Notes under the pieces: generated by a model
The model's input: only the letters and a program-made list of their open reading frames with translations
Databases searched by the model: none
Told to the model about the DNA's origin: nothing
Assembly: GCA_023259035.1 (NCBI GenBank)
Contig: JAHFRA010000006.1
Coordinates: 1-64,000 of the forward strand
Reading direction: 5' to 3'
Length of the DNA stretch: 64,000 bases
Origin: Gallionella sp.
Lineage (GTDB): Bacteria; Pseudomonadota; Gammaproteobacteria; Burkholderiales; Gallionellaceae
Position numbers and translations under genes: made by a program
Shown: in pieces, positions 31,181-39,801 of the stretch
How the letters are laid out: every line of letters starts with the position of its first letter
How positions within the stretch are numbered: the stretch's first letter is position 1

Positions 31181-32584
31181 CTATCCCAGCACACGCACCG
31201 GCGCGAAGCCGCCGCCCGGCGTGCGGAAGTTGGTAGTCTGGCCTTGATAGAGCCGCGCCGCAACCAGTTGCACCTGCGCGGCGTAAACATAGCAGCGCAC
31301 ATCGTACTTGAGCGGTTGCGCTTCCGCCGCCTCCGCACAGACCATGCGCTCGCCCGGCGCGGCCATATGCTGTGCGACATAACCGCCCTGCATAATTTCA
31401 CCGAACACGCGGCGCGTAAGATTCGCGCCGCGATACGCGCCCTTGCTGCCATAGCCTGTTGCGGGCTTGAAGAACCATTGCTTGCGCTCCCGCCACAACA
31501 TTTCTTCCAGTTCGGGACGCACCATGAGGGTGTGCGGCACACCCAACCGCAGAGTGGCGATGTCGGCATCGCTTGCTCCGAGCGCGCGTAACCCATCCGC
31601 GTCGGTCAGCCGCATCAGATTGCGCTTGTCGGCGTAGCGGGCATAGTGCATCGGATCAGGTGTCAGCACCACGCCGCCATCCAGATACGCCTGCCGCAAG
31701 ACGGAATGCTGCTGCAAGGAAAAATCCGTCAGGCGGTTATACACCAGGTCGATCTTCCGGTCGTCGCCGGAAGATTCAAGATACAACCCTTCGCCGCGCG
31801 AATGCAACACAGCGGGATCGGCGATATACGCCGCGATTCCGGCACGCTCGAACATGTGCTGCGCCAGAAGGAATTCGGGGTACAGGTATTGTGCTTCCGG
31901 CTGCTCGTCGACGATAGCAATGCAATTGAGCGGCGTATCGCCGCGCGCCAGCCGCCACTCGTTGCGGAACATATCAAGAAAAGTCTTCTCAAGGTTTTCT
32001 TCCGCCACCGCCACACCCGGCAAGGCAGCGTCGCGCTGGCTGTCGAGCAGCAACGCATTCAAAAATCCGCCGCCCGCATTGCTATTGATTTCGATCAGAT
32101 GCGCGCCATCGGCATTCAGGTGGAAGTCGTAGCCGAAAAACACGCCGAGAGTTTTATTATTCTGCGCCGAAGAGGCGACAATTGTTCCCTCTCCCGCAGG
32201 CGGGAGATAACCAGCGACTTGCCCGCTTGCGGGCTTAGTCGAATGGCTATAACCAACCACTTGGCAACCGTCTTCTGGTTGCTTAGTGGGATGGCTAGTT
32301 GTTTCATCAGTTGTTCCATCAGGGTTAGGGAGAGGGGCGTGGAAATGAACACCATTCGTCCACCCCGGCAACCCTACCACCCGCTCCAGCGCATCAATCA
32401 CTTCGCGCATCTGCTGCATCTGCGCAACAGTTATAAATACCGGCACATCGGCAAACAAATGCGGGCAACGCTCCGTCACCAAACCATGCCACGCCTCGCC
32501 TTGCGCCTGTATCGCCTGCCGCAGGGCGGCACGGCTCAATCCTGCCGCATGACCATCCGCATTCAGCAGCTCTGCCTCGATCAC
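31181..32584 (-). CDS. ATP-grasp domain-containing protein carrying an in-frame palindromic repeat insertion
   Basis: GVFFGYDFHLNADGAHLIEINSNAGGGFLNA, KQWFFKPATGYGSKGAYRG; residues PLPNPDGTTDETTSHPTKQPEDGCQVVGYSHSTKPASGQVAGYLPPAGEG encoded by repeat DNA. Confidence 0.75.
   Translation of the reverse strand: MIEAELLNADGHAAGLSRAALRQAIQAQGEAWHGLVTERCPHLFADVPVFITVAQMQQMREVIDALERVVGLPGWTNGVHFHAPLPNPDGTTDETTSHPTKQPEDGCQVVGYSHSTKPASGQVAGYLPPAGEGTIVASSAQNNKTLGVFFGYDFHLNADGAHLIEINSNAGGGFLNALLLDSQRDAALPGVAVAEENLEKTFLDMFRNEWRLARGDTPLNCIAIVDEQPEAQYLYPEFLLAQHMFERAGIAAYIADPAVLHSRGEGLYLESSGDDRKIDLVYNRLTDFSLQQHSVLRQAYLDGGVVLTPDPMHYARYADKRNLMRLTDADGLRALGASDADIATLRLGVPHTLMVRPELEEMLWRERKQWFFKPATGYGSKGAYRGANLTRRVFGEIMQGGYVAQHMAAPGERMVCAEAAEAQPLKYDVRCYVYAAQVQLVAARLYQGQTTNFRTPGGGFAPVRVLG
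32187..32336 (-). repeat. 150-bp composite palindromic element in frame inside the ATP-grasp ORF
   Basis: Ends are CCCTCTCCC (32187-32195) and GGGAGAGGG (32328-32336); interior is copy A of the hairpin family. Confidence 0.85.
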
Positions 32585-33144
32585 TGCCGGCCCAACAGCT
32601 TTTGTTTAAGATCGCCCTGCGCCGGCTTCTCGCCCAGCCAGATTTTCAGCAATGCAGTATTAAATGCCGCTCCGGCGATATTGCCTTTGGCAACGCCATT
32701 CACGCTGACCTGGGTTCCGCTGGAAGGTTGATAGTCCAGCGCGATGACATCGCCTTTTTTCACTTCAGACATCGTGTTAAAAATTGCCGAAAACTCCTTG
32801 ACCGAAGCATCCAGCACAGCCATTTCTGCGGGCGCATGGTTGGCGGCGATGGCGGCATTAAAAGCATCCAGCAATGTTTTGGCAGCTACGTCGCGCAACA
32901 AATGCAACGCCACGCGTTTCTCGGTTGTATCGGACAGCACAGCCGCAGCACTGGTTTTTTTCTCGCCCAGATACAGCGCCGCGACATACACATCAAAAAA
33001 TATTTTGGTGCGGACTCCCGCACCGTTCAATTGCAGCGTTGCATTTCCCACCTGAACCTTGTCGTCCAGCTTGATACCAGCCACTTCAAGGGCAAACGCC
33101 TGTGAGACCAAACACAGCATGAATAATACGATCAGTTTTTTCAT
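32581..33144 (-). CDS. Chalcone isomerase-like periplasmic protein
   Basis: LEVAGIKLDDKVQVGNATLQLNGAGVRTKIFFDVYVAALYLGEKKTSAAAVLSDTTEKRVALHLLRDV. Confidence 0.88.
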   Translation of the reverse strand: MKKLIVLFMLCLVSQAFALEVAGIKLDDKVQVGNATLQLNGAGVRTKIFFDVYVAALYLGEKKTSAAAVLSDTTEKRVALHLLRDVAAKTLLDAFNAAIAANHAPAEMAVLDASVKEFSAIFNTMSEVKKGDVIALDYQPSSGTQVSVNGVAKGNIAGAAFNTALLKIWLGEKPAQGDLKQKLLGRQ

Positions 33145-33278
33145 TTTTTTCCCTTCAGTTCAGAAGACAGATGAAGATTTAACCCCCGCCCTAACCCTTC
33201 CAAGGGGAGGGAATAATACCGCTTTTAACTATCCTTTAATGGCCGCCGCATAGGTCAAACCCTTGTGAGCCCCCCGGC

Positions 33279-33340
33279 ATAACCAATGACTAACCCAGCG
33301 CCTTTTGCTGGGTTAGTCAGATGGCTAGCTGTTTCATCAG
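33279..33340 (-). repeat. Hairpin family copy B (perfect 13-bp stem)
   Basis: Minus strand: TGATGAAACAGCTAGCCATC-TGACTAACCCAGC-AAAAGGC-GCTGGGTTAGTCA-TTGGTTAT. Confidence 0.85.
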
Positions 33341-37657: not shown

Positions 37658-37707
37658 ATCAGCCAAAGCGCATATAATTCGCGCAGGTTCCCAGCTAACC
37701 GAAAAAC

Positions 37708-38715
37708 ATGAACACCGCCCGCACCTTTTTGATGGAACTACCGGTAAAACAACTGGCCATCCGGCTAACCCAGCAAAAGACGCTGGATAAGCCATTGGTT
37801 ACAACCATTCGACCCAGCCGCCAAAAAACGACAGCCACCAAGTCGCTGGTTATAGCCCTTTCCACCCTCGTCCTGACTGGCTGCGCCTCCACTCACGCAA
37901 AAAATCCTGCCGATCCGCTGGAATCGTTCAATCGCAGCATGTACCAATTCAACGACACCATGGACAAAGCCGTCGCCAAACCGGTCGCGAAGGGCTACAG
38001 CGCTGTGATGCCGGATTTCGGCAAGATCATGGTGAACAATTTTTTCTCCAATCTGGATGACGTCATCATCACCGCCAACGACCTGCTGCAATTCAAAATC
38101 AACCAGGCCGCTTCCGACGGCTCGCGCTTTCTGATCAACTCTACCTTCGGCGTACTCGGCCTATTCAATGTGGCGAATAGACTCGAGAAACACAATGAGG
38201 ATTTTGGTCAGACGCTGGGCTACTGGGGCATCGGCAGCGGCCCCTATATCGTCCTGCCTGTTCTGGGGCCAAGCACGCTGCGTGATAGCGTCAGCCTGTA
38301 CGCAGATAGCCGCCTGAGCCTGCTGCGCGGCATCAAACACATGCGCACCCGCAACCAGATGTTTGCGTCCAAGGCGATCAGTCGCCGCGAACAGCTCCTG
38401 AATCAGGAAAAAGTGCTGGATGAGGCCGCGGTAGATCGCTATGAATTCATCCGCGATTCCTACTTGCTGCGTCGCAAGAGCCAGATATATGACGGCAATC
38501 CGCCGCGCGAACGATACGATGACGAAGAAGAAGATATCAAACACGAACAAGTGCCGATTCCAAACACGCCATCGGCTCAACAAAACAACACGCCCGATGC
38601 CCGGCCTGTCAGCACGGCACAGCAACAACCGGCGCCTGCCACACCCCAGACTGGTACTGCGGATCGCCACAGCACCCATAAAATATGGGTGGTACAACAC
38701 GTCGGCATACGTTAA
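37708..38715 (+). CDS. mlaA: MlaA (VacJ) family phospholipid-transport lipoprotein; N-terminus encoded by repeat element
   Basis: LVIALSTLVLTGCAS lipobox; DPLESFNRSMYQFNDTMDKAVAKPVAKGYSAVMP. Confidence 0.93.
   Translation: MNTARTFLMELPVKQLAIRLTQQKTLDKPLVTTIRPSRQKTTATKSLVIALSTLVLTGCASTHAKNPADPLESFNRSMYQFNDTMDKAVAKPVAKGYSAVMPDFGKIMVNNFFSNLDDVIITANDLLQFKINQAASDGSRFLINSTFGVLGLFNVANRLEKHNEDFGQTLGYWGIGSGPYIVLPVLGPSTLRDSVSLYADSRLSLLRGIKHMRTRNQMFASKAISRREQLLNQEKVLDEAAVDRYEFIRDSYLLRRKSQIYDGNPPRERYDDEEEDIKHEQVPIPNTPSAQQNNTPDARPVSTAQQQPAPATPQTGTADRHSTHKIWVVQHVGIR
37730..37857 (+). repeat. Hairpin family copy C, overlapping the mlaA start
   Basis: TGATGGAACTACCGGTAAAACAACTGGCCATC...TTGGTTACAACCATTCGAC...AAGTCGCTGGTTATAGCC aligns end to end with copy A. 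Confidence 0.85.
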
Positions 38716-39717: not shown

Positions 39718-39801
39718 TGGTGAAACGACTGATGGGACTACTAGCCATTCCACCAGCCAACAAAAGAACGGTTGCATGGTGGCTGGTTATAGCCATCTGA
39801 C
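39718..39801 (+). repeat. Hairpin family copy D
   Basis: CTGATGGGACTACTAGCCATTCCACCAGCCAACAAAAGAACGGTTGCATGGTGGCTGGTTATAGCCATCTGAC. Confidence 0.8.

Follow-up and report, generated by a model that had tools for sequence, protein, structure and literature searches.

An in-frame insertion of a mobile hairpin, very probably into a pre-existing signal peptide, in mlaA of a Gallionella-type bacterium

What lies at the 5' end of this mlaA gene? The window, by which we mean the whole 64,000-nt stretch of DNA that was analysed, comes from a Gallionella-type MAG (2.88 Mb, 93.65% complete, 4.94% contamination) that we label G000. The mlaA ORF in the window is the single MlaA of that genome; a second mlaA was looked for in the genome, and none was found. 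The N-terminus of the encoded precursor now reads MNTARTFL, followed by 41 residues encoded by a repeat element and then by ALSTLVLTGC; the N-terminal peptide quoted in the initial annotation of this DNA is correct. The mlaA features and the other copies of the repeat family in the window are as follows.

37708..38715, + strand: mlaA ORF, 335 aa plus stop; Pfam MlaA (PF04333), E=1.9e-73, aa 68-258
37708..37730, + strand: start codon and n-region codons taken as native (MNTARTF and the first two bases of codon 8), aligning with MN..R.L/F of element-free orthologs
37731..37853, + strand: inserted element, 123 nt or 41 codons, in frame, made of two nested hairpin units; limits from empty-site comparison
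37731..37742, + strand: left part of the outer unit, from the layout common to other copies
37743..37802, + strand: inner 60-nt unit, inserted into the outer unit; R1 match 37742-37803, 58.4 bits
37803..37853, + strand: right part of the outer unit, with the KSLVI-encoding end ...AAGTCGCTGGTTAT; from blastn and unit layout
37854..37884, + strand: hydrophobic core and lipobox taken as native, ALSTLVLTGC, homologous to element-free orthologs
32207..32321, - strand: copy A, composite, in frame inside a 474-aa ORF (31184-32605, - strand)
33278..33339, - strand: copy B, in the loop of a CCCGGC...GCCGGG hairpin, without coding sequence on both sides
39730..39791, + strand: further copy, downstream of an htpX-like ORF; covariance-model match

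The initial annotation had described a dispersed repeat over the 5' end of mlaA, and this repeat is genuine: a blastn search with 37730-37857 gave 43 matches in G000, the best other copy being 82% identical, and a covariance model of the family gave 98. The limits first assigned to it, 37730-37857, have to be narrowed, since empty sites place them at 37731-37853. The insert enters codon 8 after its second base, and the two bases ahead of it are TT, unlike the typical CT. An outer unit of 63 nt and an inner unit of 60 nt make up the insert, and the reading frame is kept; the same nesting recurs at loci L002, L003, L004 and L006. The mlaA copy is indeed read in another frame than copy A, whose unit at 32248-32309 lies on the minus strand. 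The residues KSLVIA had been ascribed to the conserved tail of the element; KSLVI is almost wholly element-encoded, but the final Ala is native, its codon GCC standing after the element end. Similarly, the repeat had been said to span the start of the ORF. The candidate start ATG 37732 does lie inside it, but ATG 37708 is upstream of it. Counted from ATG 37708, there are 59 codons from Met to the lipobox Cys, against mostly 18 in orthologs, and the n-region has 44 residues, an unusual length for a lipoprotein. Hydropathy over 10 residues peaks at 2.84 when the insert is present (LVIALSTLVL) and at 2.18 when it is absent.

The family unit is 60 nt long, with the consensus GATGRAACWACTAGCCATTCGACTAGGCTGCCAAAARACGRCAGCCAAGTCGCTGGTTAT, and folds into an 18-bp stem with a 5-nt bulge. 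In an alignment of 17 units of G000, 91.5% of cells are paired and 34 two-sided changes are seen, against a shuffled mean of 13.5, as befits a dispersed palindrome; structures slid along the unit pair in at most 45% of cells. Unit length, taken from 42 copies located by a loose pattern, is 60 nt in 36 copies, 54 nt in three and 59 nt in three. Among the 39 copies whose length is divisible by three, phase +0 is open in 35, +1 in 27 and -0 in 28, and the other three phases are open in none. Within the genus, 39 of 41 genomes contain covariance-model matches (0-105 per genome); copy numbers are low in G023, G036, G029 and G031 and high in G016 and G022. At a stricter cut-off, matches extend thinly into other genera of the order, with 12 of 200 genomes containing them, three of the 12 from the same genus. 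Rfam returned no match to the hairpin family, and literature on Gallionella and palindromic repeats, searched at title level, offered no description of it. Separately from this family, the window contains a long array of 18-nt direct repeats (from 23137 to about 24000; 40 overlapping 300-nt registers at 18-nt spacing), which is probably the repetitive part of a protein gene.

How does the element insert? In 35 of the 42 copies there is C at position -2, and in 38 of 42 there is T at -1. The ends of the unit were set by comparing filled with empty sites among relatives. The empty glnD site reads GAA AAA CTC TTG GCC (GAAAAACTCTTG|GCC) and is filled with exactly 60 nt in three species (the window genome, G069 and G066), and it is empty in six others. 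Likewise, CCT^CCC in cysS is filled with a 60-nt GAT...TAT, and TCT^CCC in aroA-cmk is filled in the same way (+60 nt). At these glnD, cysS and aroA sites, no target-site duplication was found beyond an ambiguity of 1-2 nt. Several copies sit in the loops of other palindromic repeats, and the composite copies consist of one unit inside another at its own ACT^AGCC site. Two of these loci have a further feature. In aroA-cmk of the close relative G017 (L176), only a palindrome of the CCCTCTCCC...GGGAGAGGG type is present, in frame, at the element site, and it looks like the target before insertion. Around the glnD insertion point there is a second, older indel, in which SEKLLAGHP is present or absent (L188-L190 versus L186, L187 and L191). 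As to a mobiliser, a Y1/RAYT transposase was considered and rejected: among ten Y1_Tnp loci of the genus, an element copy stands at one only, and there already inside an nnrD-like gene, and the element flanks none of the Y1_Tnp genes examined. Among the transposases searched, which were Y1_Tnp only, there was no parent IS.

The mlaA copy is one of many within genes. In G000, at least 17 copies, mlaA included, are in frame with coding sequence on both sides, as called by a codon-usage score on either side that was trained on these same loci. Family models bear out most of the hosts, among them metH, phosphoglucomutase, aroA-cmk, glk, an MFS transporter, an RND transporter, rlmM, cysS, an nnrD-like gene, a YbbP-like permease, glnD, glnE and apbE; the 474-aa ORF that hosts copy A has no Pfam match. 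In a second species (G027), eight of 30 copies are in frame in genes, among them cysS and a gene resembling the nnrD-like host. Empty sites are present in relatives wherever this was tested. Counted by eye over both genomes, and with some orthologous sites included, about 17 in-frame copies are read in +0 (hydrophilic, DETTSHSTRLPKNDSQVAGY-like), five in +1 (LAIRL..KSLVI-like, as in mlaA) and four antisense; this by-eye skew suggests that the hydrophilic +0 reading is the better tolerated. The cysS linker is a hotspot, because elements occupy different positions in it in three species and other repeats occupy it in other species. One such repeat, the widespread GTTCGCCCTGAGCCTGTCGAAGGG type, is also in frame in the linker in G027 and G016 (L169, L170), and in G027 the 60-nt element sits at the centre of a repeat of this type, giving nested in-frame repeats of two families. 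G027 has another in-frame copy (L203), placed by eye in the linker after the lipoyl domain of a putative dihydrolipoamide acyltransferase.

Which part of the MlaA signal peptide is older than the repeat? In all 40 same-genus MlaA proteins whose gene has an unambiguous ATG close to the lipobox, the signal peptide is compact (18-24 aa, and exactly 18 in 33 of the 40) and free of the element; MNAIRILIALAAVALTGC is one example. Element-free orthologs have in common the outer N-terminal pattern M-N-x-x-R-x-L/F ... IALxxxxLTGC. Excising 37731-37853 from the window gene leaves MNTARTFLALSTLVLTGC, whose 18 residues reproduce the ortholog length and pattern and which is close to MKTIRIFLALAALALTGC of G015. 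Excision thus restores an ortholog-like peptide, and we therefore conclude that the element split an existing signal. Upstream of mlaA there is a nudix gene, both here and in 26 of the 35 orthologs with enough upstream sequence, and because this neighbour is conserved, the 5' flank of the window gene is native as well. Among the same-genus mlaA 5' ends read, only those of the window genome and of G020 have an insert. On these comparisons, ATG 37708, the n-region MNTARTFL and the core ALSTLVLTGC appear to be native, and the repeat appears to be a later in-frame insertion. The initial annotation had seen in the repeat the origin of the mlaA start. When the mlaA 5' ends of related genomes are compared, element-free orthologs encode the same outer N-terminal residues, and this rules out recruitment of the repeat as the original start. 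Its companion claim, that the repeat forms part of the secretion signal, stands in a reduced form: the repeat now encodes most of the n-region and KSLVI of the core, but it did not supply initiation or the beginning of the signal.

We propose, with high confidence, that a non-autonomous mobile hairpin inserted in frame into a pre-existing MlaA signal peptide, which still starts at the native ATG 37708 and is processed at the native lipobox. The outer unit would have entered codon 8 of an ordinary lipoprotein signal peptide, and the second unit would be the one that now lies inside it. Translation would still begin at ATG 37708. The element would make the n-region long and basic, and with KSLVI, at its end, it would restore the front of the hydrophobic core. 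Export through the Sec pathway and processing by Lgt and LspA at the native lipobox would go on as before, leaving mature MlaA unchanged. The insertion would be no adaptation of MlaA; it would be tolerated, since a frame-neutral element has landed in the part that is removed. The same tolerance may explain the in-frame copies in cysS, aroA-cmk, glnD, metH and other genes; the element would land behind CT, and frame-neutral insertions at tolerant sites would survive. Broken base pairs in the inner stem of the mlaA copy, and unremarkable folding of the RNA near the start, agree with an old, decaying insertion.

Could the element itself, as the main alternative to our proposal has it, be the working translation start, with ribosomes beginning at TTG 37795 or ATG 37732 and ATG 37708 lying in the leader? 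The product from TTG 37795, MVTTIRPSRQKTTATKSLVIALSTLVLTGC, would be a textbook lipoprotein signal, a weak GGA stands about 7 nt upstream of that codon, there is no SD-like triplet upstream of ATG 37708, and a published caution holds that a repeat found at the N-terminus of an ORF may precede the true start (PMC3733652). However, an SD-like triplet precedes the ATG in only 15 of the 40 mlaA orthologs, so its absence at ATG 37708 is normal in the genus; ATG 37732 has no such triplet either, and TTG is a weak start that falls in the 3' part of the inner hairpin unit. ATG 37708 and the codons after it are still ortholog-like, and a native start conserved beyond the insert speaks against that caution as a full account of mlaA. 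We thus regard initiation within the element as doubtful, and a shorter MlaA product from an internal start is possible. That the hairpins regulate mlaA, through RNA structure at the start codon or through mRNA stability, with the protein reading incidental, would suit a strongly covarying hairpin less than 150 nt from the mlaA start codon. Yet 37670-37880 folds about as well as its shuffled versions do (z -0.10), and most of the AUG region is left unpaired; some pairs of the mlaA copy are broken, and other copies lie deep inside genes. We rejected the hairpin as a translation regulator of mlaA on its folding energy, which does not differ from that of shuffles, and regulation in general seems very improbable. 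A repeat wrongly stitched into mlaA during assembly or binning deserves thought in any MAG, and some 98 family matches can mislead assemblers; this reading is hardly credible here, as the mlaA copy is unique and diverged from every other match in the genome, all 123 nt leave the reading frame intact, mlaA sequence stands on either side, G020 has an insert at the same site, and comparable in-frame copies recur in other assemblies.

The mlaA gene of G020 has an insert as well. This insert, 117 nt long, interrupts codon 8 at the identical nucleotide and in the identical phase, and excising it leaves MFATLALFAFAALALTGC. The outer element could therefore be an ancient insertion that G000 and G020 share by descent and that was precisely lost elsewhere, rather than two parallel insertions, and forcing the two MlaA sequences into one clade is not rejected (p-AU 0.236). 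Against descent, the best MlaA tree places G000 with the insert-free G017, G016 and G069 (95/93) and G020 elsewhere, and the two inserts are built up differently, by nesting at ACT^AGCC in G000 versus extra sequence near the loop in G020. On balance, we think a single ancient insertion rather unlikely. The G020 gene (L028, 1470-1640) has one further peculiarity: the DNA of its h-region, TTCGCCGCACTCGCCCT, is repeated nearly unchanged right behind the start codon, as TTCGCCACACTCGCCCT, so that the two flank the insert.

Rickettsia and Wolbachia are the best-known bearers of in-frame palindromic inserts in conserved proteins, which are commonly explained there by relaxed selection in small intracellular populations. 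The Gallionella-type genus is free-living and rich in species, with as many as about 100 copies in a genome and with sharply defined empty and filled sites. We suggest tentatively, and at somewhat less than even confidence, that this free-living lineage carries a mobile hairpin shaped for intragenic life (frame-neutral at 60 or 54 nt, stop-free in three of six phases, and inserting into existing palindromes as well as into itself), which repeatedly arrives at the same protein sites, the cysS linker and codon 8 of mlaA, and which has replaced most of the MlaA n-region and the front of its core without loss of the gene. If this is true, the mlaA insert is a natural experiment in signal-peptide tolerance. 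The genus permits direct tests of how such elements move, which phases and protein sites are tolerated and whether part of a signal peptide can be taken over by a mobile element. There is also a caution for annotation: start sites and extra loops in Gallionella-type genomes may derive from the element.

Where does the element stand among known repeats? The palindromic elements of Rickettsia (RPE) and the protein-coding palindromes of Wolbachia (Ogata et al. 2000, 2002, 2005), as described in PMC2229807, PMC10969869 and PMC3767692, resemble it in several respects. In those descriptions, too, a small palindrome stands in frame in unrelated housekeeping genes that have insert-free orthologs, host proteins, here the predicted ones, stay full length, and some sites are common to several species while others act as hotspots that hold different inserts. 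We likewise found the element in frame in several unrelated conserved genes whose orthologs lack it. On the same descriptions, lengths and hosts differ from those of the RPE families: an RPE measures about 100-150 nt and belongs to an obligate intracellular alphaproteobacterium, whereas the present unit has 60 nt and belongs to a Gallionella-type betaproteobacterium. Unlike RPE, it also has a CT target, no target duplication and self-nesting, and one copy splits a secretion signal. On repeats in signal peptides or extended lipoprotein n-regions, our literature search found no paper.

MITE-type repeats such as ERIC/RU-1, RU-2, RU-3 and Correia (PMC2229807, PMC2759123) are similarly non-autonomous, dispersed and foldable, and they are occasionally fused in frame to genes, including those of predicted exported proteins. 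MITEs, however, typically have terminal inverted repeats that match an IS, and target duplications; here no target duplication was seen at the glnD, cysS and aroA sites. Intragenic REPs with GTAG or CGTC tags, known for example from O. terrae, Thauera and Rickettsia conorii (PMC3733652), are many short palindromes, some of them wholly within ORFs and in free-living bacteria, and their dimers or clusters encode several tens of residues, all of which recalls the present family. REP units are described as 20-40 bp, in contrast to the present unit, and a GTAG or CGTC tag near either end was found in none of our 42 copies, which places the family outside the GTAG/CGTC REP superfamilies. Finally, although we found no described family that contains it, the element acts like the Rickettsia palindromic elements and the intragenic REPs.
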